NCBI GenBank assembly: GCA_943788935.1
Contig: CALSSE010000009.1
Location: 124,001 to 188,000 of the forward strand
Source of the DNA: an uncultured bacterium
Lineage (GTDB): Bacteria; Myxococcota_A; Bradymonadia; UBA7976; VGTA01
DNA: 64,000 nucleotides
Reading direction: 5' to 3'
The position numbers and the translations under genes are program-made. Shown here piece after piece: positions 45,153-64,000 of the stretch (its first letter is position 1; each line of letters begins with the position of its first letter). Under the pieces are notes generated by a model, which saw only the letters and a program-made list of their open reading frames with translations, was not told where the DNA came from and did not search any database.

Positions 45153-45153
45153 G

Positions 45154-46035: not shown

Positions 46036-46082
46036 GGGTGAGGTATCACACCTCGTTGTGAGTAGGAGGAGGAGAGAATAAT

Positions 46083-47483: not shown

Positions 47484-47495
47484 AGCTCATGATCT

Positions 47496-48107
47496 TTAGC
47501 TTGGTTTCTCGCTTGGTTTCTCGCTTGGATCCTCGCTCCCCCAAGTCCAATAGACATTCATCGTGAAATTCCAAGCGGTGGCGATAATGATCCCTAATAG
47601 TTGGGAGAGATATACCCAGTCTCCTACCCTTGGGGGAGTGGTCATCAGCAGCTGCCATCCCTCTTGATTGAGCAGTAAACCATAGCTCGCCCAGAGGTCA
47701 CTGTTGGGTCCAACACTGATCCCAGTATAGACCCAAAAGACGTTGAGACTGATAAAACTCAACCACTGAACTAGCGCTCCGACAAGAGAGACGAGCTGGA
47801 ACCGAGTCGCTCGCTGACGAAGAGACGTAGAGAGGGAGGTCGCGGGCTCATCTCTCATCGGGTCAGACTCACTCTCCATGACCCCAGTCGTGATCCCGAC
47901 CTTGACGTCAGTGACACGATCTCTGAAGGTCCAGCGCTCATTGAGTACAAAATTAGAGAGAATAGAGATCTCTATCGCGATCGCCGAGGCGAGGTTGTCG
48001 CCTAGACCTAATGATCTTAACAGCGCTAGAGCGCCAAGGTTGACGATCACTCCTGAACCACCGACCGCCCCAAACTTGATAAAGTGAGTGAGGCGAGGTG
48101 TATTCAT
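47496..48107 (-). CDS. GtrA-like membrane protein
   Basis: The protein has 203 residues. The start FIKFGAVGGSGVIVNLGALALLRSLGL and SNFVLNERWTFRD are the GtrA family hallmarks: small four-helix flippase-like proteins associated with polyprenyl-linked sugar translocation. A charged insert between helix pairs (VTDVKVGITTGVMESESDP) is longer than usual. The C-terminus is a short repeat (PSEKPSEKPS) from 12-bp units. No gtrB-type partner is adjacent. Confidence 0.85.
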   Translation of the reverse strand: MNTPRLTHFIKFGAVGGSGVIVNLGALALLRSLGLGDNLASAIAIEISILSNFVLNERWTFRDRVTDVKVGITTGVMESESDPMRDEPATSLSTSLRQRATRFQLVSLVGALVQWLSFISLNVFWVYTGISVGPNSDLWASYGLLLNQEGWQLLMTTPPRVGDWVYLSQLLGIIIATAWNFTMNVYWTWGSEDPSEKPSEKPS

Positions 48108-48125
48108 AGAGTGAAGAGCGAGCGC

Positions 48126-49439
48126 TTACTCAGCGCAAGCAGCATACTCGGTAGCGCACTGAGGGCAATCATACGAAGTGCACATATTGTTCTGTGCACA
48201 CTGTCCGAGCGCCTGTAGTGGCATTTGCTCTGCCTCTTGAACATCTAGCTCACATTGAATGACACAATAAATGTCTTGACCACAGGTCTCGGTACAAGAG
48301 AGGAAGTCTCCGCAGGTGAGGTTACCGTCAGGGAAGCAGGCGCTATACTCCGGGCCGCAGCTTGCCTCGAGGCAGGCTGCATCTTGACACATCGCGTTCC
48401 CTCCGCAGGTGAGGAAGGCGTTAAGTGCGCCTTGCTCAGCGGCGCTGACGCCGGCGAGACATTCCTGCTGACACGCCATGTCAGTAGGTTCACAGCGCAC
48501 ACCGGCGCAGACATAAGCGGCGCCACAAGAGAGGGTACCGGCTGCGGGTGGAGGGATATTAGAGCCACTGCCACCGCCACCGCCAGCTTGACAAGCCATT
48601 AACTCAGCCTGACAAGCCTGGTTATAGCATGCGGGGTCATCTTGGGCGCATCCATCTTCGATCGCTTGCAAGAAGCAGCTGTTGGCGTCCGAGAACTGAA
48701 TTTGAGCATCGATAGTACCACTCTCGACACAACCGCTCTGGCATGCTTGATCCATAGGACCACATGACTGAAGACAAGAGAAAATGTCTCCGCAGGTCGC
48801 GGTCCCCATCGGTAGAGGTCCAAAACATGCATTGTACTCTGTCTCACAGGTAGTGAGGAGGCATGAGGTGTTACCCTCAGGGCAAGTCATGCTCGCATCT
48901 CTTAAGCAACCTTGAAAACCATTATAGAGGGATTGAGTATCACTATCAGTGTTGTTGAAGCAAGTTTGTGAACAGTTTTGGTCTTGGCAGGCGTTAATGC
49001 AGCTCAAGAAGGCAGGATCACAAGCACCCATCATGGGGTTTGTCTCGGTGCCACCGGTCACCATGGTACCACCGGTCATCATGGTGCCACCGGTCATCAT
49101 GGTGCCACCGGTTATCTCGGTACCACCGGTCATCTCGGTACCACCGGTCATCATGGTACCACCGGTCATCATGGTGCCACCGGTCATTTCGCTCGGTGTA
49201 CAGACATTTTGTGCACCCGCGGCGACACAGCTATAGCCATCCGGACAGCTCGCTGCATCAGCGGTGTCGCAGCTCTGACTACAAATCTGTGAGTTACCAG
49301 AAGCGATACAGAGCGATGAACTACAATCATTTCCATTGGAGCAGGCTTCACCTAAGAGCGCGGAACCACCTGAAGAGGAGTCATCACATCCGAAGATCAT
49401 TAGAGATGATAAGAAACAGAATAGGGGCCAATATCTCAT
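48126..49439 (-). CDS. Cysteine-rich lipoprotein with MTGGT repeat linker
   Basis: Start at ATG 49439, preceded by AAGGAGAG. Lipobox SLMIFGC, then GEACSNGNDCSSSLCIASGNSQICSQSC, an about nine-unit linker of MTGGT(M/E) encoded by 18-bp repeats, and a C-terminal region of about 300 residues with repeated CxxxC-type modules (ACDPAFLSCINACQDQNCSQTC; CGDIFSCLQSCGPMDQACQSGC). The repeating module of about 75-80 residues occurs roughly four times. This is probably a surface-displayed disulfide-rich protein. Function unknown. Confidence 0.78.
   Translation of the reverse strand: MRYWPLFCFLSSLMIFGCDDSSSGGSALLGEACSNGNDCSSSLCIASGNSQICSQSCDTADAASCPDGYSCVAAGAQNVCTPSEMTGGTMMTGGTMMTGGTEMTGGTEITGGTMMTGGTMMTGGTMVTGGTETNPMMGACDPAFLSCINACQDQNCSQTCFNNTDSDTQSLYNGFQGCLRDASMTCPEGNTSCLLTTCETEYNACFGPLPMGTATCGDIFSCLQSCGPMDQACQSGCVESGTIDAQIQFSDANSCFLQAIEDGCAQDDPACYNQACQAELMACQAGGGGGSGSNIPPPAAGTLSCGAAYVCAGVRCEPTDMACQQECLAGVSAAEQGALNAFLTCGGNAMCQDAACLEASCGPEYSACFPDGNLTCGDFLSCTETCGQDIYCVIQCELDVQEAEQMPLQALGQCAQNNMCTSYDCPQCATEYAACAE
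49048..49192. repeat. 18-bp coding repeats (MTGGTx linker)
   Basis: Units of the form CCACCGGTCATCATGGTG recur about eight or nine times with one or two substitutions each, encoding Met-Thr-Gly-Gly-Thr-(Met/Glu/Val) in the lipoprotein on the minus strand. Confidence 0.93.
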
Positions 49440-49573
49440 TTGTTCTCTCCTTAAGAGTTGAGTTTGATTAAAAATCATGTCACTGAGACCTCACTTGATG
49501 AGAAGATACAACCTAAGGATTAGGCAGTATTTACTCAATGACACTGTCTTTATTAAAGATAATGAGGGGCATA

Positions 49574-49933
49574 ATGAAACGTAACGATGTTCAGTCGCAA
49601 GGGAAATTTAAGACACCCTGTCTCACGCACTCGGTTTTGTTTATTTTTCTGCTCTCTTGTATGTTGATCGGTTGCTTTGATCTTATCGAGAGTGCCGACG
49701 CTCCTTGTGGTGGACCTGATGATTGCTCTTCCCCTCGACAATGTATCGAAGGGCAATGCATCTCTGCTTGTTATAATGATGAAGAGTGTGCGCTTAATGA
49801 GCGCTGTGATCGACAGCTCTGCGTCATAGGTGATCTACTAGAAGGCGAGTCAACAGCGGGCGAGTCAACAGCGGGCGAGTCAACAGCGGGCGAGTCAACA
49901 GCGGGCGAGTCAACAGCGGGCGAGTCTCCCTGA
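49574..49933 (+). CDS. Small cysteine-rich lipoprotein with GESTA tail
   Basis: Start at ATG 49574 (MKRNDVQ), preferred because the longer frame has no better signal. A hydrophobic segment ends in the lipobox CMLIGC. A short disulfide-type region (CGGPDDCSSPRQCIEGQCISACYNDEECALNERCDRQLC) follows, then five AGEST-type units from 15-bp repeats, and the protein ends directly at the repeat (GESP, stop). An ending right inside the repeat suggests a truncated gene whose downstream domain has been lost, or a short anchored stub. It is divergent from the larger cysteine-rich lipoprotein. Confidence 0.65.
   Translation: MKRNDVQSQGKFKTPCLTHSVLFIFLLSCMLIGCFDLIESADAPCGGPDDCSSPRQCIEGQCISACYNDEECALNERCDRQLCVIGDLLEGESTAGESTAGESTAGESTAGESTAGESP
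49844..49918. repeat. 15-bp repeat, 5 copies (GESTA)
   Basis: GGCGAGTCAACAGCG repeats five times perfectly at the 3' end of the small lipoprotein gene, followed by a diverged unit and a stop codon. Confidence 0.96.
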
Positions 49934-49953
49934 GTTATCTCGGGTCTCTATCC

Positions 49954-50889
49954 TCACATCTCCCCACGGGCGCCGATAAGCGCAGTCGCGCCCATTTGGT
50001 CACCAAGTATCCCAGCAGGAGCGTCTATGGGGACAAATAAGCTGACATAATACTCGACGTCATTTCGCAGATATGAGTAGGTCGCTTGAGCGTGGAGTTG
50101 ATCTATATCTTCAACTAAACTGGTAGGTGTGAGTGCATAGCCACCCCCAATGAGTAAGCCAGAGAGTGCTCCTTGAAACCCTAAGGCCCCGCTCGCTTGT
50201 ACGAAGACATTGGCGCTCTCGATTTCTGTAGACTCGATGACCCGATACATATAAGCCGCCCCGAGGTCGCCCTGTAGAATGAAATGGCTCCAAGTAGAAC
50301 GACCGCCCATCTCTAAAAATGCTGACGCTGTATTGGGCTCCCATAACCATCTATTTTGTCCACCAAATCGGCTAGCGAGAGCGATACGGTAGGCATCTAG
50401 TTGGGCCTCTCCTTCTAGTCCGCCTTCTCCGCTGAGAGAGCGAGTCGGCATGGAGATCCCGAGCCCAATAAAAGGGTCATGAAGCTCTCTCTCTCCCCCT
50501 CGCCATCTCCAATCAATCGCTATGTTAGCTGTATAGACTCCGCTCTCATCATCAACTAAGTTTTCGTAGCTGTGGCTGAACATTCCCCAGCTCAAGCCGA
50601 GCTCACCACTCTCGAAAGGAGAGCGAATATTGAAGAAGAAGCCTGTTTGGCTGCGACTTTGATATGGATCATCAGCGCCACCAACTCCACCCCAAAGACC
50701 TGCATCAAAGAGGGCGCTTGGAGGTGCATATCCACGCCCTAAGCCTAAGTGGTCGGTCGGATGATTAATGTCAGAAGGTCTCACCTTAGCAGATGACTCT
50801 GATGAGCAGAGTGAGGAACTTAAGGAGACCGAGACAGAGACATAAATAGAGAGGGTGATGAGGACATGTAATGAGCGAAACTTAGTCAT
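49954..50889 (-). CDS. Outer-membrane beta-barrel-like exported protein
   Basis: Start placed at ATG 50889 (MTKFRSLHVLITLSIYVSVSVS), giving a signal peptide. The longer upstream frame only translates the 15-bp repeats. The mature part has alternating hydrophobic/aromatic strands (GFFFNIRSPFESGELGLSWGMFSH, SHFILQGDLGAAYMY, GLLIGGGYALTP, QATYSYLRNDVEYYVSLFV), consistent with an outer membrane barrel of about 300 residues. No family is firmly recognised. Its upstream neighbours are the reverse transcriptases; a functional link is not evident. Confidence 0.65.
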   Translation of the reverse strand: MTKFRSLHVLITLSIYVSVSVSLSSSLCSSESSAKVRPSDINHPTDHLGLGRGYAPPSALFDAGLWGGVGGADDPYQSRSQTGFFFNIRSPFESGELGLSWGMFSHSYENLVDDESGVYTANIAIDWRWRGGERELHDPFIGLGISMPTRSLSGEGGLEGEAQLDAYRIALASRFGGQNRWLWEPNTASAFLEMGGRSTWSHFILQGDLGAAYMYRVIESTEIESANVFVQASGALGFQGALSGLLIGGGYALTPTSLVEDIDQLHAQATYSYLRNDVEYYVSLFVPIDAPAGILGDQMGATALIGARGEM

Positions 50890-50900
50890 GATAGTGCTCA

Positions 50901-50960
50901 GAGTGTGAATAATGAGAGAGTGAATAATGAGAGTGTGAATAATGAGAGTGTGAATAATGA
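50901..50960. repeat. 15-bp tandem repeat, 4 copies, in the leader between the reverse transcriptase and barrel genes
   Basis: GAGTGTGAATAATGA (second copy GAGAGTGAATAATGA) repeats four times just downstream of the first reverse transcriptase stop and upstream of the barrel protein start. It translates to LIIHT units in an out-of-gene frame, so its coding value is doubtful. Confidence 0.93.
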
Positions 50961-50974
50961 GAGAGCAGTCACTC

Positions 50975-52051
50975 TTAACCCCTCCCTTGGTAAGTATAGT
51001 GAATAAAACGAGGGATCTCTTTAGGCTTAGGCGCCTTAATCCAACCGGAGTGGGCATCAAGTAATCGTTGTAATGGCTTGATGAGTGTTCGAGGAGGAGT
51101 AGGATAGATCGAGCGCAAGAAGGAGAGGACGCCGATCAGCTGAGCGCGCTCTCGCTGATCGATCTGATCAACCGTTTTTTGAGCCACTTGGTCGATATGT
51201 GCTCGATAACGCTTAAGGGTCGCTTTGGGTAAGGCGAGTCGTTGATTATGAAGGCGAATGCCACAAATGACGATCGATTTTTGCTGATCGCTGTATGCGT
51301 GTATTTTATAAGGGTTGATCGTGAAGCCAGCACGGGTGATCGCCCGTTTGACTTGAGCGATGAACTCAGGAGGGATCGGTCCACTTGAGGTCAAGGTCAA
51401 ATCATCGGCATAGCGGGTATATTTTAGCTGAGGGAGGCGTGAGCGTAGAGCGACCGCATATATGAGCCGATCTAAGCGAGCACAAGTGAGATTCAGCAGG
51501 TACCCTGAGGTAGGCGCCCCCTGTGGCAGAGCGCCATCTCGGGTGCAGAGCTGGGCGATCAGTTGACAGGCCACTCCTCGGTCCTCGGCAGAGAGCTGGG
51601 GGGCATTGATCTTGATCAACCGACCAACCCTCCAAGTGATGACCGAAGAGACTCGCGCCTCAGAGACAGAGGGGAAGGCATCTTTTAGATCGACACTTAA
51701 TATGTGCCGAGCGCTCGGAGCATGTACGAGAGCGTTGGTGATAATGCTGCGATGAGGAACGAAACCATGGGCGAATGGGGTGACGCTCACTTGGTTCAGC
51801 AGTTGATCTAATAGGGCGCGTTGTATTTGTTTTAACTCTGCTGCAGGGGCATGAATAACCCTTACTTTGCCATTCCCCTTGGGATATTCATAGCGCTCAT
51901 ACCCGCTCTCAGAGCGAGATTGCTTGAGAGCCTCTTGGAGAATCTCTTGGGGCTCATCAAGGAGTGTGGAAAGCGCTTGGAGAACGTCTGCGCTGGGCGT
52001 TAGGTTGAGATCATGGCTCGCCTCAAGGTCTGGGGTATATTCGTCAATCAT
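50975..52051 (-). CDS. Reverse transcriptase, retron-like (second of a tandem pair)
   Basis: The protein has 358 residues. Visible motifs: YPKGNGKVRVIHAP, AHGFVPHRSIITNALVH (NALVH at 106-110, the retron NAxxH box), SVDLKDAFPSV with Asp121, ALPQGAPTSGYLLNL (177-182) and YTRYADD (YADD 214-217). All catalytic aspartates are kept. The retron VTG triplet in the thumb/Y region is replaced by VICG (261-264). It starts 3 bases after the preceding reverse transcriptase stop. It is retron-like or a defence-type (DRT/UG) enzyme; no effector domain is attached. Confidence 0.85.
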   Translation of the reverse strand: MIDEYTPDLEASHDLNLTPSADVLQALSTLLDEPQEILQEALKQSRSESGYERYEYPKGNGKVRVIHAPAAELKQIQRALLDQLLNQVSVTPFAHGFVPHRSIITNALVHAPSARHILSVDLKDAFPSVSEARVSSVITWRVGRLIKINAPQLSAEDRGVACQLIAQLCTRDGALPQGAPTSGYLLNLTCARLDRLIYAVALRSRLPQLKYTRYADDLTLTSSGPIPPEFIAQVKRAITRAGFTINPYKIHAYSDQQKSIVICGIRLHNQRLALPKATLKRYRAHIDQVAQKTVDQIDQRERAQLIGVLSFLRSIYPTPPRTLIKPLQRLLDAHSGWIKAPKPKEIPRFIHYTYQGRG

Positions 52052-52054
52052 TTC

Positions 52055-53110
52055 TTACCCCCAAAGCTCATCTGCCCAGCGAGCGGGTCGATGTTGATGA
52101 CTCTTAATTAACGCTCTTAATTCATCGGGGATCATTAACCCATTGGGGATAAGACCCCCTCCATAGACCTCATGGGTCAGGTAATCTAGCTCTCTCAAGA
52201 GCTGGGCTGCTTCGCTCCACTCCCTAGTCGTCGGTGCTCCAAATAGGAGGGCGCGGAGTCGATGAGCGCGCTGCGCTAAATGTAAAATAGAGGCGTCAGG
52301 TAAGTCGAGCTGACCATCGTTCCAGCAGAGTCCATGTATGATCGCTTCATCACGAGGTGCTCGTCGTGTCTTTGAGGTATTGAGCTCATATCCGTAGTCG
52401 GTGAGCGCCCGGGTGAGTCTAGGGAGAAGCTCTTCATGAATTTGTTGATCGTGAGAGAAGCTGAGGTCATCCACATACCTCGTGTATCTCACAGGGGAGT
52501 CAGGGCTCAGTTTATGGCACAGATGCAAGATGTCAGAGTCTAGGTCAGTCCAGACGATATTAAAGACTGCAAGACTCGTCGGTGTGCCGAGCGGTAGCCG
52601 AGGGAAACGTCCTCTCTCGGGGTTAATGACCATGAGGTGGGTCAGCCAACCGACGACCACCTTTCTCTCTTCTCGATTAAGACTAAAGGCCCACAACATA
52701 GGCTTAATCTGTTTTCGTAAGCATTTTGATATTCGCGCATAACTTGTCTCAGCGAAGGCATTCACCACATCGGTCTGTAAGATCTCTCCCGCTTGTTGTA
52801 GGTGTACTCTCGCAGCATCTAAATGAGACCTCTTTGGGACTCCCCCGAAAGCTGCTCGCGATACGGGGAGGCTATAGAGGACTCGCTTGAGGATCTTCTG
52901 TTGAACCTGATATACCGCCGGCTGAGGGGTGTGGATCTCTCTTACTTTCCCAGTAGGAGCTTGCTTTAGTCGATGAACAAAGTACCCACGTTCTCGCTCT
53001 CGACAAGCTCTCCAAGCCGAGTCAATGGTCTCACTGTCAAGGTCGAGTAGAGCTTTTAAGGCGAGCTTTATCTTAGGCGATAATAGGGCTGTGATTTCGA
53101 CGCGACGCAT
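52055..53110 (-). CDS. Reverse transcriptase, divergent (first of a tandem pair)
   Basis: ATG 53110 preferred: AGAGGTG lies about 9 bases upstream. The frame also opens from TTG 53170, adding 20 residues with no ribosome-binding site. Residue numbers here use the longer frame. Motifs: HRLKQAPTGKVREIHTP, GGVPKRSHLDAARVHL (where a retron would have NAxxH), the catalytic TDVVNAFA with Asp134, RLPLGTPTSLAVFNI (194-199) and RYTRYVDDLSFS (YVDD 232-235). The thumb block reads IIHG rather than VTG. The two proteins are diverged paralogues. Divergent from an aldo/keto reductase; no clear msr/msd structure upstream. Confidence 0.85.
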   Translation of the reverse strand: MRRVEITALLSPKIKLALKALLDLDSETIDSAWRACRERERGYFVHRLKQAPTGKVREIHTPQPAVYQVQQKILKRVLYSLPVSRAAFGGVPKRSHLDAARVHLQQAGEILQTDVVNAFAETSYARISKCLRKQIKPMLWAFSLNREERKVVVGWLTHLMVINPERGRFPRLPLGTPTSLAVFNIVWTDLDSDILHLCHKLSPDSPVRYTRYVDDLSFSHDQQIHEELLPRLTRALTDYGYELNTSKTRRAPRDEAIIHGLCWNDGQLDLPDASILHLAQRAHRLRALLFGAPTTREWSEAAQLLRELDYLTHEVYGGGLIPNGLMIPDELRALIKSHQHRPARWADELWG

Positions 53111-53277
53111 CTCGCTGTGCACCTCTAATGTGGTAACGGGGGCTAGGAAGTGAGAGAGCAAGTCACTCAAGTGAATGGGGATGTTTTATAGGACGATGCC
53201 ACTATACTTGCAATCTCAAGGAAATTCACACAACTTTATAAGCTGATTGATTAAGTGAAAAGAGAAAGTGACTATCG

Positions 53278-54228
53278 ATGCGTTATCGGAGATTAGGTCA
53301 TTCAGGGTTACGAGTGAGCGAGGTCGCTCTCGGAGGTTTCTTTAAGGATGGATATGAGCTGAGTGAGTGGTCTCTCGCCCAGCTCACAGGGGAGGCATTG
53401 GAGAGAGGAGTTAATCTGATCGACTTAGCTGATATCTACCATCAAGGTAAGGTCGAGAGCGTATATGGCAAACTCTTGAGCTCTTATCCTCGTCATCAGC
53501 TAGTGATCGCGACCAAATGTTTTTGGCCAATGTCACAAGGGATCAATGATCGTGGCTTGAGTCGTAAGCACCTTGTTGAGAGCCTTCATGGCTCACTTAA
53601 GAGATTGAACACTGATTATGTAGATCTCTTTATGTGTCAGGCCGAAGACTTAGAGACGCCGCTAGAAGAAACAGTGCGCGCGATGAGCGACCTGATCAGG
53701 CAAGGCAAGACGCTGTATTGGGGAGTGTGCGGCTGGAGTGTGAAGCGACTCTTACAGCTTAATGCGCTCTGCGAGCAGCTCAACGCTCCCAAACCGATCG
53801 CTCAGCAGCTCGCTTATAATTTGTTTGACCGATACCCTGAGCGCGAACAACTCTCTATGTGCGCACATTTAGGTTTAGGCGTGATGACGTGGAGCCCCTT
53901 CGCGGGTGGTGTTCTCGCACAGGGAGAGATCGGAGGAGAGAGCGGAGGTATAGGGCTTAATGCCCAGCTAAAGAGAGCAGAACAAGAGATGCTTGAGTCT
54001 CGATATCTTAACGCTAATGCTGCGGATAGCCTCTCTCGTCTCGAGGCGATCTCAAAAGAATATGGTCTCACCAAAGCTCAGCTCAGTCTAGCGTGGGCTC
54101 TCCGACGCTCTGAGGTCTCTTCGGTCATTCTAGGTGTGAGCTCATTAGAGCAGTTACAAGAGAACTTGAAGCTCTATGAACATTCGGTTGATGCCGCTCT
54201 TCTTAGTCGATTAGACAATATCATTTAA
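53278..54228 (+). CDS. Aldo/keto reductase
   Basis: NADPH-dependent oxidoreductase of the AKR superfamily, 316 residues. N-terminus YRRLGHSGLRVSEVALGGFFKDG; catalytic Asp and Tyr in VNLIDLADIYHQGKVE (Asp52/Tyr57-like); Lys in VIATKCFW. A cofactor-binding C-terminal SLAWALRRSEVSSVILGVSSLEQL follows. The substrate is unknown; similarity is to the Kv-beta/YghZ-like branch by layout. Not obviously linked to the divergent reverse transcriptases. Confidence 0.9.
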   Translation: MRYRRLGHSGLRVSEVALGGFFKDGYELSEWSLAQLTGEALERGVNLIDLADIYHQGKVESVYGKLLSSYPRHQLVIATKCFWPMSQGINDRGLSRKHLVESLHGSLKRLNTDYVDLFMCQAEDLETPLEETVRAMSDLIRQGKTLYWGVCGWSVKRLLQLNALCEQLNAPKPIAQQLAYNLFDRYPEREQLSMCAHLGLGVMTWSPFAGGVLAQGEIGGESGGIGLNAQLKRAEQEMLESRYLNANAADSLSRLEAISKEYGLTKAQLSLAWALRRSEVSSVILGVSSLEQLQENLKLYEHSVDAALLSRLDNII

Positions 54229-54259
54229 GGGTCAACAGATCACCCGATGAGGTAGTAGT

Positions 54260-55528
54260 ATGTCCAATGAACCACGGCTCTCTTCTTCTGATATGCCGGT
54301 CGTCGATACTGACCAGCGCCTCACCAATGAACTCATCAATGAACCGACGACTCGAGTCGCAAGACTCGAGTCTGATGACAACAGAGCGATAGGCAGAACG
54401 ATAGGCAGAGTTGCAGATATAGAACGTGAAGACCCAGGTCCTCGCCCTCTGATGGTCGCTATGATTGGCTCTGCTCTATGCGTCGTCTTGCTGGGGGGAG
54501 CCTCTCTCCTCGGAGAGTCTAGCGGGCTGTATCGCTTACTCTTTGGAGAGGGAGGAGCTCACCTCTTGAGTCAGCTATGTACGCTGATCTTGTTTAGCTG
54601 GGGGATCGCTTCTGTTGTCGCTTGGATTATCTCGCTTCGAGGTGAATTGAACGCTCTAGCGACTCATCATCGATCGCTCACCGATGTGGCTCACGCTCAA
54701 TCATCTCCTCTCATCAATCAGTATGAACAGGATACTGGCTGGGGGTTGAGACATGTTAACACTTATATAGAGTGTAGAGCGGTCATCGATGAGGCGAGAG
54801 AGCGTCTTATCGAGCGATTAGAGGTGGCCACAAGAGGAGCGTCGGCCGCCATGTGGCTGATCCCTCTCTCAGGGTTCCTAGGAACAGTGATCGGGATGAG
54901 TTTAACCATCGGTCGCTTTGACGACCTCTTCGCCAGCGCTAGCGGTGAGAACGTTAAGTTGATCGGTCTTACCGACCTCGCTCCGGCGATTCAGGGGTTG
55001 AGCACCGCCTTTGATACAACTTTATTAGCCCTAGCTTTAGTGATCCCGCTTAAGTTAGCTCTCGTCGCTCTTGAGCGGTACAGTGAAGAGCTCATAGAGG
55101 GTGTGGAGAGGCTCATTGGTGAACCTCTCTTGGCCCACAAACTCTCGAATGCTCCCGCTCAAGTGAACGCTGACAGCGCCTCCTCGTTCGCCTTAGCGCT
55201 CGGTGTGCTCAATGAACAATCGACGACTCTTAACTTACGACTCGCAGAGACTGTTCGCTATCTCTCGCAGTTACGTGAAGAGTTACTCAGCCACCCCTCA
55301 CTTAGCGCTCATGCTCAAGTGGATTTGGCGCAGACCATTGAGCGAGCGATCTCATTGAGTCAGAGAGAGCGCGGTGAGTCGCAGAGTCAGGATCAAGAGT
55401 TCTTGATCGCTCTCCAAAATCTGACCGCTCATCAGTCTCAACTCGGCGATCAGCTCCTCGCGCTCCGAGAGTCTGTGGAGGCGCCGCTGCTTGTCCAACG
55501 AGCACCTCGTCAGCCTCAGGAGAGCTGA
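54260..55528 (+). CDS. MotA/TolQ/ExbB-type proton channel protein
   Basis: The protein has 422 residues. Four hydrophobic segments (LMVAMIGSALCVVLLGGASLL; LLSQLCTLILFSWGIASVVA; AMWLIPLSGFLGTVIGMSL; LSTAFDTTLLALALVIPLKLALVAL). The last two carry the MotA/ExbB signature with FLGTVIGMS and TAFDTTLLALAL. A long cytoplasmic loop and a helical C-terminal tail follow. It is the first gene of a three-gene unit; the next gene encodes its probable MotB/ExbD-like partner with only 1 base between stop and start. Confidence 0.82.
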   Translation: MSNEPRLSSSDMPVVDTDQRLTNELINEPTTRVARLESDDNRAIGRTIGRVADIEREDPGPRPLMVAMIGSALCVVLLGGASLLGESSGLYRLLFGEGGAHLLSQLCTLILFSWGIASVVAWIISLRGELNALATHHRSLTDVAHAQSSPLINQYEQDTGWGLRHVNTYIECRAVIDEARERLIERLEVATRGASAAMWLIPLSGFLGTVIGMSLTIGRFDDLFASASGENVKLIGLTDLAPAIQGLSTAFDTTLLALALVIPLKLALVALERYSEELIEGVERLIGEPLLAHKLSNAPAQVNADSASSFALALGVLNEQSTTLNLRLAETVRYLSQLREELLSHPSLSAHAQVDLAQTIERAISLSQRERGESQSQDQEFLIALQNLTAHQSQLGDQLLALRESVEAPLLVQRAPRQPQES

Positions 55529-55529
55529 G

Positions 55530-56681
55530 GTGTTACGTCGCGGTCGAGCTAGGCGCCGAAAGCTAGGTGAGAGCGAGAGCTTTGGGATGTCACTCATGGA
55601 TCTCTTAACCGCAGCGTTAGGCTGTGTATTGCTGATCTTTATTGTCTATTCGGTGATCACTAGCGGTGATCTCGCTCGATTCCTCTCCGCCAACCAAGAT
55701 CTCATCAGCTCACTCAGAGAGCGCGACACTTTGATCGCGTTTCGTGAGAAGGAAGCGGCGGGGTTACGCACTCTCCTCGATTCCTTAGAGTCTAAGCTCT
55801 CAGCGCGAGAGCTAGAGTTGTTGAGAGAGCAAGAGAAGAGTAAAGTCGCGCTCAATGAGCGAGAGCGATCACACCGAGATTCAGTACGCGATCTTTTAGT
55901 GAAACTTAACGTTTTAAGTGAGGCCCTCGATCCACAAACCGCTCGTCCTGTGGACGTTATGTTGGTCATCGATGGGACGAACTCAATGGAGCCTAGCTTA
56001 GTCTCTGTTCGTCAGAACCTGCGAGCGATCATCGGCGCCTTACAGGTGTTGAGCCCCACAGCGAGGGTAGGGATCGCCGTCTATCGCGATCGTCGAGAGC
56101 GACCAAAAATGCGTCTTGAGTTTCAAGAGATGACCTCTAAGGCGGATCGCCTAAAGGGGTTCCTCGAAGGGATCAAAGCCAAGAGTACTCGGCGAGATAA
56201 AGATCGACCCGAGTGGATGTGTGGTGGCTTGAGGGCGGCGATTCTTGGTCAGCGCTTCGCCGACTACTCCAAGAAGAGCCGTCGCCGTAAGGGGAAGCGT
56301 GAGAGCACATCTCCGTGGCGAAAAGACGCTATTAAACTAGTCGTGATTGTCTCGGATGCTGGCGCTAACTCTAAGCGAGCGAGCGCTTGTGTAGAGGTTG
56401 CCGAAGGCTTTAAGAAAGAGGGGGGGAGAGTGCATATCGTCTCGACCCTACCTCGAGGTTATGGGAAGAGGAAAGCGGTGACTAAAGAGTATGATGAAGT
56501 GGTTCTCAAGGAGCATGCCGCTATCGCCAAGGCAGGAGGGGGAGAGCATATTCAGCGGGCGAGTGAATCTACGCTCCTCGAAGAGGTGCTCCGTTCAGCT
56601 TTCCGCTCTCGAATCGCTGAACTCGAACGCTTGCGTGAGGTGATTAAACAAGGGGAGAGGATGGCTGAGGAAGAGAAGTGA
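55530..56681 (+). CDS. Membrane-anchored vWA protein, probable MotB/ExbD-like stator partner
   Basis: Start at GTG 55530, preceded by AGGAGAGCTGAG; the TTG at 55491 is less likely. One transmembrane segment near the N-terminus, FGMSLMDLLTAALGCVLLIFIVYSV, contains a membrane aspartate as in ExbD/MotB. Then comes a coiled-coil stretch (ISSLRERDTLIAFREKEAAGL through KSKVALNERERSH), followed by a vWA domain with MIDAS LVIDGTNSM (Asp-x-Thr-x-Ser), VVIVSDAGANS and a C-terminal helix. In place of the usual OmpA or periplasmic domain it has vWA, an unusual stator architecture. Confidence 0.8.
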   Translation: MLRRGRARRRKLGESESFGMSLMDLLTAALGCVLLIFIVYSVITSGDLARFLSANQDLISSLRERDTLIAFREKEAAGLRTLLDSLESKLSARELELLREQEKSKVALNERERSHRDSVRDLLVKLNVLSEALDPQTARPVDVMLVIDGTNSMEPSLVSVRQNLRAIIGALQVLSPTARVGIAVYRDRRERPKMRLEFQEMTSKADRLKGFLEGIKAKSTRRDKDRPEWMCGGLRAAILGQRFADYSKKSRRRKGKRESTSPWRKDAIKLVVIVSDAGANSKRASACVEVAEGFKKEGGRVHIVSTLPRGYGKRKAVTKEYDEVVLKEHAAIAKAGGGEHIQRASESTLLEEVLRSAFRSRIAELERLREVIKQGERMAEEEK

Positions 56682-59092
56682 AACTGATGATTCATTGGTC
56701 TCGACTCTTTGGTTTAATGAGATCAGGTTCCATAGCCTCTGGTGTCATGACTTTAGTCTCTCTGATCTCTGTCTCTCTGATCTCTGTCTCTCTGATCTCT
56801 GTCTCTATGAGCTTAGTCTCCTGCATGGGGGGCGGACATGTATCACGCTCTCTCGAGAGAGATCATCTGCTTTCTGAGGAGAGGCAGGCGGCGCTTGACC
56901 ATTACCAACGTGTACAACATGAAGAGCTTATCCCTGATGTAGTCTGCGCTCAGTGCCACCCACGGCAAGCGCAAGAATATGGGACATCGACGATGCGCTA
57001 TGGCTTCTTTTCTCCTAGCTTTAATGCGTTGGAGATGAGCCTGAATCAGCTCAGTGATGGGGCTTTTACTCATGCGGGCGAGGCGGGGAGTTTCTGCAGT
57101 GATTGTCATGGACCACGAGCTCAAGCGATGGGCTTAGAGGTCAGCTCTACCCAGGCGAGTCGAGAACAGCTCTCTCCTCTCCAAGCTCGTGAGGCGGGAA
57201 TAGGCTGTGATCTGTGCCATAGTCAACAGCAGGGTCGTGATCCCTCGAGCGGTTTAGAGAGGAGAGGTCATCAAGATAAGCTGACTTCCCATGAACAGCT
57301 CTCCCCCAATTCCTTTCATGGGTACCGTCGACCTTCAGCACAGGTGCAGCGAGGGATTAATCTCTCGTCTAGCGAGATGTGCGCTCCATGTCATGATGTG
57401 AGACCCACCCGGCCTGATGTCGTTGAGGGGACCTCAACCTTACGCAGCGAAGATCTCTTCACGGAGTGGGAGAAGAGTCCTTGGGCGCAAGCAGAACATC
57501 CGCTGAATCCTCTTCGCGGTCAGCCGGGCATTGATGGGGTTCATGATCGACCTGAAGAGCTCGAGCGAGGAGAGCAAGTGACCTGTCAGGACTGTCATAT
57601 GAGTCTGTATCCTTGGCGATCATTCACCGACCGGGTAAGCTATCAAGAGCACTTCTCAGGGGTCGACCTCAGCGAGTTGACTCGGAAAGCTCATAAACTT
57701 TATCCGGTGGGATTCGCTGCAGAGCGTGGTCATCTCACTGATGACCGAGTGACTGATCAAGCAGTAAGCTCTTCACCCAAATTCGTTCGACGACGGGCCT
57801 CTACTCATTATTTCACTGGAGTCTCCCATCCACTTACTCCCTTCTCCTCATCCTCTATTTTTGACCCTCGCTCGATGGGTCTCGACGGAGGAGAAGAGCA
57901 AGTGGAAGAGTGGAGCGCTGAGCGATCTAGATCGACGGCTCAATGGCTCACTGAGTGGCGAGACTGGCGAGCGAGCGAGGAGAAAATAGATGTCTACCAG
58001 AATCCCACAGCGACTCATCTACGGCGTGAGGCCTTACTCCGCGCTGCGCTCTCCCTCGACCTCAATGATACCGTCGAGGAAGTCTCACCAGAGGGTCTTC
58101 TAACGATCAATGCTTGGGTTGAAAATATTGGAGCGGGTCATCATGTGCCAGCGGGGTTTAGTCAAGAGAGGGAAGTATGGGTAGCGGTTACTTTAATCGA
58201 CCAAGGTCGATCATGTTCTGCAGATCTAGACTGTGCTGACTTGACTGAAATGCCCCTTTTCTTGGACTCACCTCATCGAGAATGCATCGTTCATAATCGT
58301 TTAGGAGAGCGAGATTCGGCGCTTCCCGCTCAGGGGTCATGGCAGGCAGCCGCTCGCGCAGAGCGGAGCGGGGTGTGTGGAGAGAGTGGTCAGTGTGTAG
58401 TCTACCGCTCGGGCTACCTTGTAGATGAGGATGGAGATGGGAGACTCCAAGATGAAGAGTTGCGGCATTTACTGATAGAGCGAGATAGCGAAAGTTTCGA
58501 CGAGCGCTGTGTGATCTCAGGCCCCGATGTCGATCAGCGGTTACGAGGTATAGAGAGAGGTCTTGTTCACTTTACCAATGCTCTACAGCGAGTCGAGGTC
58601 AATGAGAATGGAGCGCCGGTTGAACACCCAAGTGTGAGCCTCTTCTCCCCTAGCGCAGAGCCCTTTGACCCTTCTCGACTTGATCGCGGACCGATATTTG
58701 ATCAAGACCCCCAGGTGCGTCGGTCCCTCTTCGCGACTCAGAGAGCGCTTTATGAGCAGAGCCGATACCGACCAGCGCCACCCGGTATACTTGGGGTCAG
58801 TCGCCGAGGTCTCGGCGTCAATGCCCCAACGCTGCTTCTCGCTAATCGAGCTTTTAATGGTCAATCGCTCGCTCCCTTTGAACCAAGATTAGCTCGTTAT
58901 GAGCTCTCTCTTCCCTCTACCATTGTCGGACCTCTCCTCCTTAATGTGAAGGTGCGCTTTCGCTTCTTCTCACCTCGTTTACTCTATACGCTGATCGACA
59001 GACACCCCCAGCTGCTCCGCGAAGAGATGATCGATGAGGGCTTAGAGATCATCGACATGGTGAACGAGAGAAAGACCATTGAAGTCAGATGA
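56678..59092 (+). CDS. Multiheme cytochrome c lipoprotein (five CxxCH)
   Basis: The product is 804 residues; GTG start overlaps the vWA stop. The signal peptide is inflated by three 15-bp repeats (LISVS) and ends in the lipobox SLVSC (Cys49). Five heme-binding motifs: CAQCH (90), CSDCH (140), CDLCH (177), CAPCH (235) and CQDCH (303). The C-terminal half, with LTINAWVENIGAGHHVPAGFSQEREVWV, resembles the beta-domain of multiheme cytochrome family proteins that have a VPAG motif. Extracytoplasmic electron transfer is likely. Coupling to the proton-channel genes in the same operon is suggestive. Confidence 0.85.
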   Translation: MKLMIHWSRLFGLMRSGSIASGVMTLVSLISVSLISVSLISVSMSLVSCMGGGHVSRSLERDHLLSEERQAALDHYQRVQHEELIPDVVCAQCHPRQAQEYGTSTMRYGFFSPSFNALEMSLNQLSDGAFTHAGEAGSFCSDCHGPRAQAMGLEVSSTQASREQLSPLQAREAGIGCDLCHSQQQGRDPSSGLERRGHQDKLTSHEQLSPNSFHGYRRPSAQVQRGINLSSSEMCAPCHDVRPTRPDVVEGTSTLRSEDLFTEWEKSPWAQAEHPLNPLRGQPGIDGVHDRPEELERGEQVTCQDCHMSLYPWRSFTDRVSYQEHFSGVDLSELTRKAHKLYPVGFAAERGHLTDDRVTDQAVSSSPKFVRRRASTHYFTGVSHPLTPFSSSSIFDPRSMGLDGGEEQVEEWSAERSRSTAQWLTEWRDWRASEEKIDVYQNPTATHLRREALLRAALSLDLNDTVEEVSPEGLLTINAWVENIGAGHHVPAGFSQEREVWVAVTLIDQGRSCSADLDCADLTEMPLFLDSPHRECIVHNRLGERDSALPAQGSWQAAARAERSGVCGESGQCVVYRSGYLVDEDGDGRLQDEELRHLLIERDSESFDERCVISGPDVDQRLRGIERGLVHFTNALQRVEVNENGAPVEHPSVSLFSPSAEPFDPSRLDRGPIFDQDPQVRRSLFATQRALYEQSRYRPAPPGILGVSRRGLGVNAPTLLLANRAFNGQSLAPFEPRLARYELSLPSTIVGPLLLNVKVRFRFFSPRLLYTLIDRHPQLLREEMIDEGLEIIDMVNERKTIEVR
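56756..56800. repeat. 15-bp repeat, 3 copies, inside a signal peptide
   Basis: GTCTCTCTGATCTCT repeats three times, encoding Leu-Ile-Ser-Val-Ser in the hydrophobic core of the cytochrome's lipoprotein signal. Copy number would change signal length and hydrophobicity without frame loss. Confidence 0.95.
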
Positions 59093-59255
59093 TGATGGTG
59101 GTGTGGTGAAGATCGAGCACGAATGATAGATTGGGGCTGACAAGAGCCCTATCGTGCGGCTATGCTTGAGCGCATTAATTACTTAAACCTTTCACTCAAG
59201 ACACAGGTAGCGTCTTGAGCTGATAACCATAAAACCAATAGGAGTGAAGCCCACT

Positions 59256-60077
59256 ATGCCTGAGATTGATCCCAGACAAGAGCTGATTGAGTCTGCCTTT
59301 AACGGAGCCCCCTTAGATGATGAGAGCTCTAGTGCTGTCTTCAGCGTGATTGAGGATTTGGATAAAGGGCGCTTGAGAGTCGCTAACCCTCCTCGAGTGG
59401 AAGGAGGAGAATGGACTGTAAATGCTTGGGTGAAGCAGTCTGTCCTCTTATATTTTCGGCTCACAAAGAACGAGTTGATGGATGATGGCGTCTGCACTTA
59501 TCTCGATAAGATCCCTCCCAAGCGTGATCTTGATGGTGTACGCGTCGTTCCACCGGGTGTGGCTCGCTATGGGAGTCATTTAGAGCCTGGAGTGATCCTG
59601 ATGCCTGGCTATGTCAACATCGGTGCGCGAGTAGGGACCGGCTCTATGGTGGACACTTGGGCGACAGTAGGCTCTTGCGCTCAGATCGGTGCCAACGTCC
59701 ACCTTTCTGGTGGAGTGGGGATCGGCGGTGTACTAGAGCCGCCGAGCGCCCAACCAGTGATCATTGAGGAGGGCGCGTTTATTGGCTCTCGATGTGTGGT
59801 CGTCGAAGGGGTAAAGGTTGGTGCTGGAGCGGTTTTAGGCGCGAATGTTGTCTTAACCGCGAGTACGCCCATCATCGATGTCACCGGCGAAGAAGAGCGT
59901 CGTTATCGCGGTGTCGTCCCTCCTCGATCTATCGTGATTCCTGGCGTCCGCGAGAAGGTCTTCCCTGCGGGTACCTATCACCTCCCTTGTGCACTAATTA
60001 TTGGTCAGCGGAGTGCTCAGACCGACCTTAAAACTTCACTCAACGACGCGCTACGCGATTTTGAGGTCGCGGTCTAG
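59256..60077 (+). CDS. dapD: Tetrahydrodipicolinate N-succinyltransferase
   Basis: Lysine/diaminopimelate pathway: succinyl-CoA plus tetrahydrodipicolinate. The left-handed beta-helix domain is recognisable by hexapeptide repeats (GARVGTGSMVDTWATVGSCAQIGANVHLSGGVGIGGVLEP, IIEEGAFIGSRCVVVEGVKVGAGAVLGANVVL), preceded by the conserved WTVNAWVKQSVLLYFRL helix. ATG 59256 chosen: AGGAGTG lies about 8 bases upstream; the GTG at 59244 overlaps it. Length about 273 fits. Confidence 0.95.
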   Translation: MPEIDPRQELIESAFNGAPLDDESSSAVFSVIEDLDKGRLRVANPPRVEGGEWTVNAWVKQSVLLYFRLTKNELMDDGVCTYLDKIPPKRDLDGVRVVPPGVARYGSHLEPGVILMPGYVNIGARVGTGSMVDTWATVGSCAQIGANVHLSGGVGIGGVLEPPSAQPVIIEEGAFIGSRCVVVEGVKVGAGAVLGANVVLTASTPIIDVTGEEERRYRGVVPPRSIVIPGVREKVFPAGTYHLPCALIIGQRSAQTDLKTSLNDALRDFEVAV

Positions 60078-60180
60078 TCGAGCCCATACCCAACCCATAC
60101 CGCTGACTCAGCTTTAACATTTATATGACTCTGCGATGAACACATCGACCAGATCACACCACATAATGGATGACACATAT

Positions 60181-61374
60181 ATGACTAATAAGACCGCTCA
60201 AGATATTGTTTTTGTCGCTGCGAAACGTACCCCTTTTGGAGCTTTTAATGGATCACTAAAGAGTCTCAGCGCTACCGACCTCGCGGTCGAAGCGTCTAAA
60301 TCGGCGCTCGTTCAAGGAGGTATATCTCCTGATCGGATCGATCATGTGATTTTTGGTAATGTACTGCAAAGCTCCCAAGATGCTATTTATCTCGCTAGAC
60401 ATGTCGGTCTACGATCAGAGGTGCCTCAAGTGGCGCCTGCCTTAACGGTGAACCGTCTCTGCGGCTCAGGTTTTGAGGCGGTGATCCTAGGCGCTAAAGA
60501 GCTCAAGTTAGGAGAGGCTGAGACGGTCTTGGTCGGCGGCACCGAGTCGATGAGCCAAGCGCCACACGTTGTTCGAGGCATGAGAGGAGGCGCTGTCTTT
60601 GGTAGGCCTCCTGAGCTAGAGGACAGCCTATGGAGCTGCCTCACTGATAGCTATACCGGCTTTCCCATGGGGATCACTGCAGAGAACCTCGCCGAGCAAT
60701 ATGAAATCAGTCGGGCCGACTGTGACGCTTATGCGCTTCGCAGCCAAGAGGCATGGGCGGCCGCGGATGAACGAGGTGCTTTTGATGCCGAGCTTAGCCC
60801 CGTAGAGGTTAAGGGGCGTCGAGCGAGCGTTACTGTGAGCAAAGACGAGCACCCCCGAGGCTCTAGTTTGGAGGGATTAACAAAGTTGCGACCAGCCTTC
60901 AAAAAAGAGGGAGTGGTGACCGGTGGAAATGCCAGTGGAATCTGTGATGGAGCGGCGGCGATGGTGATGACTACTAGGGCTGTTGCCGAACGAGAAGGGT
61001 GGGCTCCACTCGGATCTCTCCTCTCGTATGGTGTGAGTGGCTGTGACCCTACGATCATGGGGATTGGACCTGTACCTGCCTCTAAAATAGCTCTAGAACG
61101 AGCTAACATGAGCCTTAATCAAATGGATATTATAGAGGTGAATGAGGCCTTTGCCCCTCAATATATTGCGGTCGAAAAAGCGCTCGGTCTTCAGCGAGAG
61201 AAAACGAATATCAACGGAGGGGCGATCTCACTTGGGCACCCCTTAGGAGCGAGCGGGGCGAGGATTACCGCTCACTTATTATACTCACTCGCTGAGCGCG
61301 GTGAGACAATCGCTCTCGGGAGCGCCTGCATTGGTGGAGGTCAAGGGATTGCCGTCATCGTTAGCGCAGAGTAA
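60181..61374 (+). CDS. Acetyl-CoA acyltransferase (thiolase)
   Basis: Thiolase superfamily, about 397 residues from ATG 60181 (MTNKTAQDIVFVAAKRTPFG); the ATG at 60136 adds 15 non-conserved residues. Catalytic Cys in NRLCGSGFEAV, His in INGGAISLGHPLGASGAR, and the C-terminal Cys in GSACIGGGQG. ACAT versus long-chain specificity is not determinable. The plsC-like gene starts immediately after its stop, so they are probably co-transcribed. Confidence 0.93.
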   Translation: MTNKTAQDIVFVAAKRTPFGAFNGSLKSLSATDLAVEASKSALVQGGISPDRIDHVIFGNVLQSSQDAIYLARHVGLRSEVPQVAPALTVNRLCGSGFEAVILGAKELKLGEAETVLVGGTESMSQAPHVVRGMRGGAVFGRPPELEDSLWSCLTDSYTGFPMGITAENLAEQYEISRADCDAYALRSQEAWAAADERGAFDAELSPVEVKGRRASVTVSKDEHPRGSSLEGLTKLRPAFKKEGVVTGGNASGICDGAAAMVMTTRAVAEREGWAPLGSLLSYGVSGCDPTIMGIGPVPASKIALERANMSLNQMDIIEVNEAFAPQYIAVEKALGLQREKTNINGGAISLGHPLGASGARITAHLLYSLAERGETIALGSACIGGGQGIAVIVSAE

Positions 61375-62157
61375 ATGTTGGGTACGCTGTTAGCGATCAT
61401 TCGTAGTTTTTTTGCGATCATCTTCTTCGCGACCTTCCTCTCGACGATGATCATCTTCTCTGTGCTCACTTGGAGACGGTGGATCTTGCCAGTTTCGGGC
61501 CCTGTATTGAGATTTTTTGGTCGAACGACGCTCAAGATTTTAGGGATTCCACTCGTCTTAACCAACGAGTGGCCTTTCGCTGAAGATGAGGCGCGAGTGG
61601 TTATTGTAAATCACCAAAGTACGCTTGATATCATTTGGTTTTCAGCGGTCACACCTAATCGGATCGGAGCGATCGGTAAAAGAGAGCTCATTTGGGTCCC
61701 GCTGATGAATGTTGGATGGTGGGCATTCAGGCATTTTTTAATAGACCGTACAGACCGAGAATCAGCGATTCGAACCATGCGGGCGGCGACCGAAAATACG
61801 AAGAAGTATAGCCGGTCATTAGCGCTCGCTCCCGAAGGGACTCGGAGTAAAAACGGGCATATACTCCCATTCAAGAAGGGGGCTTTTCACCTCGCTATTG
61901 ACGCTCGACTGCCCATTTACCCAGTTGTGATGTGTGGTGCAGGAGAGTCGATGCCTAAACACACGTTTTGGGCCTATCCTACGCCGATTCATCTTCAATT
62001 TCTTCCCCCCATCTCGACCGTTGATTGGGAGATCGAGCGACTCGATGAGCACATCGCAGAGGTGCATGATCTAATGAGTATCGCTTATCGTGAGCTCAGA
62101 GCGAGCGCTGGCTTGCCTCAGCTTGCTCCACCCCCATCGCCCCAAGATCGTCCCTGA
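61375..62157 (+). CDS. plsC: 1-acyl-sn-glycerol-3-phosphate acyltransferase (PlsC-like)
   Basis: The protein has 260 residues. A hydrophobic N-terminus is followed by the NHxxxxD motif (VNHQSTLDIIWFSA), FLIDRT, and the substrate-binding motif APEGTRSKNG. It transfers an acyl group to lysophosphatidic acid in membrane lipid synthesis. ATG directly follows the TAA of the thiolase gene, suggesting coupling. Its 3' end overlaps a convergent MazG-like gene by 40 bases. Confidence 0.9.
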   Translation: MLGTLLAIIRSFFAIIFFATFLSTMIIFSVLTWRRWILPVSGPVLRFFGRTTLKILGIPLVLTNEWPFAEDEARVVIVNHQSTLDIIWFSAVTPNRIGAIGKRELIWVPLMNVGWWAFRHFLIDRTDRESAIRTMRAATENTKKYSRSLALAPEGTRSKNGHILPFKKGAFHLAIDARLPIYPVVMCGAGESMPKHTFWAYPTPIHLQFLPPISTVDWEIERLDEHIAEVHDLMSIAYRELRASAGLPQLAPPPSPQDRP

Positions 62158-62483
62158 TTGATTCCATTCTTACGCCTAAACGCACCTTCCAAATCAATCT
62201 CTAGGCGGTTAGCGATAGCGATGAGATAGTTCATCACATCGACGAGCTCTTCTCCGATATGTTCCACTGATTGAGCTTCAGCTTGTGGAGCATCTTCCAC
62301 ATAAAATCGTTGGTGCTTACGGACCGCTTTGAAGAGCTCTCCAACCTCCTCACCCATCAGAAAGCAGTTGTTGATCAAATCGACATCGAGCCATCCATGG
62401 AGAGCTTCTAGTTGGTGAATATATCTTTGATACTCACTCATAGGGGCATCTTTGGAGAGAGAGATAGAGAGGGGGGTAGTCAT
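62118..62483 (-). CDS. MazG-like nucleotide pyrophosphohydrolase
   Basis: The protein has 121 residues. Helical all-alpha MazG fold with CFLMGEEVGELFKAVRKHQ (the ExxE pair) and GEELVDVMNYLIAIANRL (the ExxD pair), the metal-binding signature of dNTP/NTP pyrophosphatases. It starts at 62483 (AAAGGA, 7 bases upstream), with a second ATG at 62441. It may clear non-canonical or excess nucleotides. It is divergent from the next gene (CARF-deaminase), which is also nucleotide-directed. Confidence 0.85.
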   Translation of the reverse strand: MTTPLSISLSKDAPMSEYQRYIHQLEALHGWLDVDLINNCFLMGEEVGELFKAVRKHQRFYVEDAPQAEAQSVEHIGEELVDVMNYLIAIANRLEIDLEGAFRRKNGINQGRSWGDGGGAS

Positions 62484-62629: not shown

Positions 62630-64000
62630 ATGACAAAAATTACAAGATGTGTCCTACACAACATTGGTCACCATGACCTTTTTGTGGAGCTATATAGAGA
62701 CAAGGAGATCTCTAGAGAGCTAGGGGGCGCTCCCCGGATTGGCTGGTGCCGGCCTCGTTCCGCATCAATGTCACGCCTTGGAGAGCTCTTGCTAGAGCGC
62801 TTAGATGAGAGTGGAGCCACCTATTATGGGAACAATTCTCTCCGCTTAAATGAACCGCTCCGCCTCGAAGCGGGTGAGCTGATGTTCGAGTTAAATGAAC
62901 GTCCTAAAGATGGGTTTATTTCCCGAGAGACCTTTGAAGCGCTAAACAGTCAGGTGGTGATTCACACGATCTATGCTCCGCTCGCTCACGAGGTTGTATT
63001 AAGTCATGAGCCGACTGAGCTCATCGCTTCATCTCGTAGTCGCCAGCAAAATAATCGACCATCCAAGCTAGATGAGATCGATCGGTTTTTGCTCATTTTA
63101 GTGACCGCTGGCGATGAGAAAAGTAGCCCTCGATTGATCGCTCAAGTGATCCAGAGAATCATTGAGGAGCGTTGGGAGAGTGACCTTCAGCTGCGAGGGT
63201 CAAACTATGAGGTGAGCTGTGAGCATGTAAACACTAATCCTCACTCGATCGCCCCTAGCCAATTGCTTCATTTAGAGAATAGGGTTCTCGAAGAGGCGGA
63301 GAGGGTCGCTGTGAATCATGGAGAAGATTGGAGAGAGTGTTTCAAACTTTATCTCTCAGTGAGCTCAGGGACGACGCTGATGATCTCAGCGATTACCCTC
63401 ACTTTCGCTGAGTGGTCTCCGGTGATGCAGACCATCGGTAAGGCGAGGCACCTATTGTCTTGTACCCCTGAGCATCCCTCGCGAGTCTATCGTCCAAAAG
63501 AGAGAGAACTCTCTTCCATTAAAGAGTGGGTAGCGGTTGAGGAGTCTCAACTCAACCATATCGGTTCACTCGCGGTTAGGGAGCTCAGGGAGTGGCGAGA
63601 GAGCTACTTAGGGCATAGGCCGAGGAGACCAAAAGAGCTTGAAGGACATAGCGATGAAGAGATATTTTTTCATCGTAAAGGACTCAAAGAAGTGCTCTGC
63701 GTCGTCGTGATTGAAGATCGAATCGGGGTCGAAGGTGAGGCGGGGAGTTTAGTCCCAATTCGAGGAGTGAACCTCGAGGTCTCTCTCCCGACCGGGACAC
63801 TGTGTGCGGAGCGTAACGCGATCAGTACCGCTCTTTGTCGCTTCCCTCAACTACAGAGGAGGGATATCAAAGCGGTGGCCGTCCTGAGCCTCGATTCGAG
63901 CCCTAAGCTCGCTAAGCTCGGCCCTTGTGGGGCTTGTGAGGAGTGGCTTCGCAAGGTTCACGAGGTGTCACCTGGCCTGCGAATCATCAGCTTTGGAGAT
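62630..64000 (+). CDS. CARF-like sensor fused to cytidine deaminase, 3' end beyond window
   Basis: 457 codons from ATG 62630 to the window end, with no stop. Residues 1-300 look like a CARF/Rossmann-type ligand domain: opening TRCVLHNIGHHDLFVELYRD, an alpha/beta region RFLLILVTAGDEKSS, and YLSVSSGTTLMISAITLTF (SGTT at 246-249), resembling the SGGTxxM loop of CARF domains. Residues of about 360 onward are a cytidine deaminase: GVNLE (Asn381, Glu383), CAE (Cys392, Glu394) and PCGAC (Cys433, Cys436), so the complete zinc and proton-shuttle residues are present. It suggests a cyclic-oligonucleotide-activated nucleoside deaminase. The CARF call is by pattern only; the deaminase call is firm. Confidence 0.8.
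   Translation, partial: MTKITRCVLHNIGHHDLFVELYRDKEISRELGGAPRIGWCRPRSASMSRLGELLLERLDESGATYYGNNSLRLNEPLRLEAGELMFELNERPKDGFISRETFEALNSQVVIHTIYAPLAHEVVLSHEPTELIASSRSRQQNNRPSKLDEIDRFLLILVTAGDEKSSPRLIAQVIQRIIEERWESDLQLRGSNYEVSCEHVNTNPHSIAPSQLLHLENRVLEEAERVAVNHGEDWRECFKLYLSVSSGTTLMISAITLTFAEWSPVMQTIGKARHLLSCTPEHPSRVYRPKERELSSIKEWVAVEESQLNHIGSLAVRELREWRESYLGHRPRRPKELEGHSDEEIFFHRKGLKEVLCVVVIEDRIGVEGEAGSLVPIRGVNLEVSLPTGTLCAERNAISTALCRFPQLQRRDIKAVAVLSLDSSPKLAKLGPCGACEEWLRKVHEVSPGLRIISFGD

Follow-up and report, generated by a model that had tools for sequence, protein, structure and literature searches.

Does type III CRISPR signalling reach the cytidine nucleotides of the cell? A gene at the end of contig segment CALSSE010000009.1, positions 124,001 to 188,000 (64,000 nucleotides from an uncultured bacterium, called the window below), raises this question. 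It encodes a CARF-like domain followed by a cytidine deaminase domain. A first-pass annotation had read it as probably a CARF sensor fused to a cytidine deaminase, and that reading is supported. We argue that the fusion is probably an ancillary effector of type III CRISPR systems, chiefly III-D, which is activated by cyclic oligoadenylate (cOA) and deaminates cytidine nucleosides or nucleotides.

The fusion gene is real. Its open reading frame stays open to the last base of the window, as had been noted, and the stop codon lies 45 bases past the edge. The complete gene spans window positions 62630-64045 (186630-188045 on contig C9 of the window's own genome, G000) and encodes 471 residues. A genus-mate, G055, has an ortholog (62% identical) at the same genomic place plus two further copies. 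Divergence between these orthologs is 0.26 at nonsynonymous sites (pN) against a saturated 0.80 at synonymous sites (pS), which shows that the protein is constrained, more strongly in the deaminase half (76% identical) than in the sensor half (57%). The domain order is constant among relatives. A promoter and terminator scan gave a result no better than shuffled sequence.

62630..64000, plus strand: gene for the CARF-cytidine deaminase fusion, with 457 of its 471 codons inside the window (open reading frame and contig extension)

The two halves of the fusion

From residue 337 onward the protein matches the Pfam family LmjF365940-deam (PF14421) far beyond chance: E is 3.4e-30, and the score of 105.8 bits is well above the cut-off of 27.1. 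All 12 aligned relatives match this family as well. The motifs of a zinc cytidine deaminase are in place.

63638..64000, plus strand: LmjF365940-type cytidine deaminase domain, C-terminal, from about residue 337 (PF14421 match; cytidine deaminases among fold and profile matches)
63770..63778, plus strand: N381-x-E383, the pair that contacts ribose in cytidine deaminases (alignment to mouse and human CDA)
63803..63811, plus strand: C392-A-E394, which supplies the first zinc ligand and the catalytic glutamate (CDA alignment)
63923..63937, plus strand: P432-C-G-A-C436, remaining two zinc ligands (CDA alignment; PCGxC invariant in 12 relatives)

All three motifs align with the solved cytidine deaminases 1zab and 1mq0. 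N381, E383, the CAE triplet, P432, C433, G434 and C436 are invariant across the 12 relatives. This bears out the earlier claim that every residue of such an enzyme is kept, and the residues do sit where the first-pass annotation put them (HNIGHHDL at 10-17, SGTT at 246-249, N381, E383, C392-A393-E394, C433-G-A-C436). Profile matches in the PDB over this half are cytidine deaminases, and a phmmer search of the fusion protein against the PDB returns weak CDA matches and nothing else. General cytidine deaminase models match weakly; TIGR01354, the cytidine deaminase equivalog, scores 26.4 bits, below its cut-off of 113.65. The central part of PF14421, profile positions of about 108-174, is absent from the fusion protein. 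The profile searches gave no match to an adenosine deaminase. A three-cysteine zinc site together with an N-x-E ribose pair is typical of cytidine deaminases that act on free nucleosides. The substrate is most likely a cytidine nucleoside or nucleotide.

The sensor half must be argued from structure. Residues 1-304 have no significant match in Pfam, NCBIfam or PADLOC, CARF profiles included, and a profile of this domain shows no similarity to the Cas_APE2256 CARF protein of the same genome. An AlphaFold2 model built from the window protein and 11 relatives has a predicted TM-score (pTM) of 0.80, and a model of the N-terminal domain alone reaches 0.87. When the domain model is compared with the PDB using Foldseek, 49 of the top 50 matches are CARF proteins, among them Sso2081, Can2, Cam1, Csm6, Csx1 and Cami1. 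The best is the ring nuclease Sso2081 with cyclic tetra-adenylate (cA4), at E=8e-4. The whole protein draws a mixture of CARF proteins (Cami1, Sis0811, Cam1, SSO1393, Can2, Csm6, Csx1) and deaminases (APOBEC3G, Vibrio cholerae CDA). Several PDB neighbours of the fusion models were solved with cA4 or cyclic hexa-adenylate (cA6). The structure search returned almost only CARF proteins rather than an unrelated fold, and the models support a CARF fold for the N-terminal half.

62630..63529, plus strand: CARF-like Rossmann sensor domain, N-terminal, about residues 1-300 (AlphaFold2 and Foldseek; no sequence-profile match)
62657..62677, plus strand: HNIGHHD loop (residues 10-16; HNIGHHDL 10-17) after strand 1, predicted ligand pocket (alignment, residue table, secondary structure)
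63356..63382, plus strand: S-x-[SN]-[ST]-G-T-x-x-M loop (residues 243-251) after strand 4, predicted ligand pocket (alignment, residue table, secondary structure)

Conservation peaks at the places of the CARF ligand loops, as H-N-[IV]-G-H-H-[DE] after strand 1 and S-x-[SN]-T-G-T-x-x-M after strand 4. Each of the 11 aligned rows that reach the N-terminus has H10, G13, H14 and H15, and all 12 rows have S243 and G247. In CARF domains strand 1 often ends in a polar serine or threonine, and strand 4 is often followed by [DN]x[ST]xxx[RK] (PMC4012209). These textbook residues are absent here, so the half should be considered a divergent CARF. The models support the fold that the first-pass annotation named; the sequence features it cited are weaker pointers than its wording suggests, because the basic signature of strand 4 is missing. 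The domain would probably bind cOA.

Linkage to type III-D systems and distribution

If the fusion serves type III CRISPR, one should look for it beside Cas10. In the carrier G186 (L044:915-11293) it is the last gene of a same-strand III-D run, which reads cas10 (510 residues, GGDD intact), RAMPs of 754 and about 510 residues, a 150-residue gene, an 864-residue RAMP, a 168-residue gene and the fusion. Gaps are near zero through the 864-residue RAMP, then 43 bp, then 134 bp. There are no CRISPR-like repeats near this operon within the 36 kb searched. The window's own genome has a homologous III-D locus on contig C19 (25002-33343), with RAMPs matching those of G186 at E=1e-31 to 1e-58 and cas10 at 1e-42. 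PADLOC and NCBIfam type it as III-D (Cas10d, Cas7_IIId, Csx10-like, TIGR03986), and its Cas10 keeps GGDD. A CRISPR array of 57 repeat copies and RT-Cas1 follow. No CARF gene lies directly beside this C19 operon, which might therefore be served in trans by the unlinked fusion. The first-pass annotation proposed a look for type III genes past 64000, and the outcome favours its reading: the adjoining DNA of contig C9 has no cas gene next to the fusion, but there are such genes elsewhere in the genome, and a relative of the fusion belongs to the G186 operon.

Co-occurrence points the same way. The III-D variant homologous to the G186 locus is found in 3 of 9 carriers versus 13 of 379 genomes (hypergeometric p=0.002, kinship ignored), and Cas10 in 5 of 6 good-quality carriers versus 54 of 237 genomes (p=0.003, kinship again ignored). 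A 2024 survey found that only 3% of III-D Cas10 proteins have an HD nuclease domain and put forward cOA signalling as the probable main mode of action of III-D (PMC11229360). The copy in another carrier, G032, lies in a defence island, beside a Schlafen AlbA_2 gene and the Wadjet genes JetA/C/D.

It must be noted that the C19 contig holds further genes near the CRISPR array (43335-61941; L075:18336-19001, L076:1-17941). E2-like and JAB/ThiF genes, both recognised by eye, lie there next to the gene of another Cas10-like palm protein, which has GGDD (745 residues, PF22335). The opposite strand of the same stretch encodes a 1220-residue protein, a MoxR-like ATPase, a 1298-residue RpoB-like/RpoC-like RNA polymerase chain and the Cas_APE2256 CARF protein.

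The fusion is rare. It occurs in 10 of the 379 genomes of the phylum sample, one remnant included. Among the 84,980 species genomes scanned there are 11 loci, all in uncultured metagenome-assembled genomes (MAGs) titled uncultured Myxococcales, Deltaproteobacteria or Proteobacteria. One scan of viral contigs found no relatives. Within the phylum sample PF14421 matches nothing but the fusion or its remnant, and the relatives are not the housekeeping deaminases that would have refuted the first-pass reading. Some copies have decayed: the remnant in G050 is riddled with stops, and in L048 (6560-6650) an in-frame TAG replaces the tyrosine codon of the HHDLY loop, so that copy is broken or misread. 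One of the G055 paralogs, on contig C184 (L036/L011), keeps the CARF half and ends in a DNA polymerase-like tail. The switch lies near the contig end and is probably an assembly chimera, so this copy is set aside.

Proposed mechanism and its rivals

We propose the following route. A Cas10 complex would recognise phage RNA, and its GGDD palm domain would then make cOA. The messenger would bind the CARF-like domain at the HNIGHHD and S-x-x-TGT-x-x-M loops and switch on the C-terminal zinc deaminase. The deaminase would turn cytidine nucleosides or nucleotides into uridine forms, with CTP, dCTP or a precursor as its probable substrate, and would in this way starve or poison phage replication and arrest the cell. 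We favour this type III effector reading because the deaminase motifs are intact, the model is CARF-like, the G186 operon and the III-D locus of the window's own genome exist, the genes co-occur, the G032 copy sits in a defence island, the spread is patchy and, in the phylum sample, the pairing of this deaminase with CARF is exclusive.

The known CARF effectors are mostly nucleases, with some membrane proteins, proteases, an NADase, a phosphatase and one type of deaminase, which acts on adenosine. The last is Cad1, a CARF fused to an adenosine deaminase that converts ATP to ITP (PMC11645235, PMC12669630). The fusion resembles it in carrying a CARF ahead of a zinc deaminase on a single chain, in its probable tie to type III and in the change of nucleotide pools expected upon cOA binding. 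However, the effector of Cad1 is a TIM-barrel adenosine deaminase, whereas the fusion has a CDA-fold domain of LmjF365940 type by Pfam and fold search, for which cytidine compounds are the expected substrates. It is not a Cad1 member for this reason, and its CARF also has no sequence similarity to profiled CARF families. Csm6, Csx1, Can2, Cam1, Cami1 and the ring nucleases share the predicted N-domain fold and are its best PDB neighbours, but the fusion differs from them in its effector, in HNIGHHD after strand 1 and in lacking a basic strand-4 residue. Within PF14421 it matches above cut-off with zinc and catalytic motifs intact, but it lacks the central part of the profile and carries the CARF-like sensor. 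Stand-alone anti-phage dCTP deaminases are known (cited in PMC11645235, PMC12715507). Depletion of cytidine nucleotides by deamination is the likely outcome shared with them. They are not known to be CARF fusions gated by type III messengers. The literature searched holds no CARF-cytidine deaminase, only incidental co-mentions, although older surveys of deaminases (2011) and CARF (2020) and supplementary tables were outside its scope and may contain an earlier mention. The main text of the 2024 and 2025 type III effector surveys has none. If our reading is true, type III signalling extends to pyrimidine pools, mirroring the stand-alone dCTP deaminases, and a ligand-switchable cytidine deaminase is gained.

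Several observations weigh against this reading. The Foldseek E-values are modest (best 8e-4) and the TM-scores low (0.2-0.5); we assign the CARF fold because many different CARF families agree. The signature residues of strands 1 and 4 are not those of textbook CARF domains, with no lysine or arginine after strand 4. Metabolic genes surround the fusion in its own genus. Physical linkage to type III genes is seen at 1 of 11 loci, and the co-occurrence p-values take no account of relatedness. A type III locus with Cas10 is joined to the fusion in the G186 operon and present in trans in G000 and others, but 4 of 9 carriers (G055, G225, G238 and G291), all draft MAGs, show neither Cas10 nor RAMP. 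G055 and G291 are nevertheless estimated to be more than 90% complete, and these four carriers are the main weakness of the reading.

One can imagine a scenario where the sensor reads a nucleotide signal that does not come from Cas10 and controls the deaminase accordingly. The gene would then form a separate defence or stress system, linked to CRISPR by no more than common genomes and islands. The missing basic residue fits this, since the RtcR and RV2818 CARF families mostly lack it too and have been proposed to bind other ligands (PMC4012209). The four carriers without detectable type III genes fit as well, and so does G055, which keeps a syntenic copy and two paralogs with no Cas10 detected. 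The III-D operon of G186 and the enrichment of Cas10 and III-D among carriers speak against the scenario. Nor is there a SMODS CD-NTase as another signal source in six of nine carriers (G000, G055, G032, G186, G225, G291). We consider such an independent system unlikely. A related idea keeps the fusion within CRISPR: its divergent pocket, with HNIGHHD and no basic strand-4 residue, would read a messenger that is not among cA3-cA6 and that comes from III-D Cas10 or an unlinked cyclase, and would trigger depletion or mutagenic conversion of cytidine nucleotides. This would define a CDA-fold class of CRISPR effectors, but we find it doubtful. The unusual pocket is a way to probe whether III-D Cas10 makes standard cyclic oligoadenylates.

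The deaminase could also edit nucleic acid, converting C to U in phage DNA or RNA under CARF control, rather than act on free nucleotides. Some deaminase-fold families do act on nucleic acids, and APOBEC3G is among the top fold matches of the whole model. Yet the long APOBEC alignments have root-mean-square deviations near 19 A, so these matches do not fix the substrate class. The zinc site and the invariant N-x-E pair are of the free-nucleoside type and the closest PDB profile matches are cytidine deaminases, which makes editing quite improbable. An ordinary pyrimidine-salvage deaminase with an allosteric nucleotide-binding domain is a further proposal. It would suit the metabolic neighbours in the window and the divergent pairing with a MazG-like gene and an acyltransferase that is conserved in two genomes of the genus. 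The very patchy distribution (10 of 379, and 11 loci in 84,980 species), the G055 paralogs, the decayed copies and the III-D and Wadjet contexts speak against it. We regard salvage as very improbable indeed.

Neighbouring genes

The gene that diverges from the fusion lies on the other strand.

62118..62483, minus strand: MazG-like nucleotide pyrophosphohydrolase, 121 residues, divergent neighbour (PF03819, 24.3 bits against a cut-off of 22)

It stands beside the ortholog in G055 too, in the same arrangement. A functional link with the fusion is possible. Directly downstream and facing the fusion gene is a ribosomal protein L3-like gene, recognised by eye (L002:2081-2755, minus strand), with no other ribosomal protein genes beside it. 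Farther upstream, at 56678-59092 on the plus strand, the window encodes a large protein with several CxxCH motifs that looks by eye like a multihaem cytochrome.

Other carriers have unusual neighbours. Beside the copy in L046 is a gene for an 868-residue protein (5052-7655, minus strand) whose Macro-domain match is weak, at 21.2 bits for a cut-off of 22, and the region also has a YcjX-like GTPase gene. Downstream of the G238 copy (L031:9744-12467) is a 908-residue protein that combines a protein kinase domain with a weak match to a FYVE-type zinc finger, which is unusual for bacteria.
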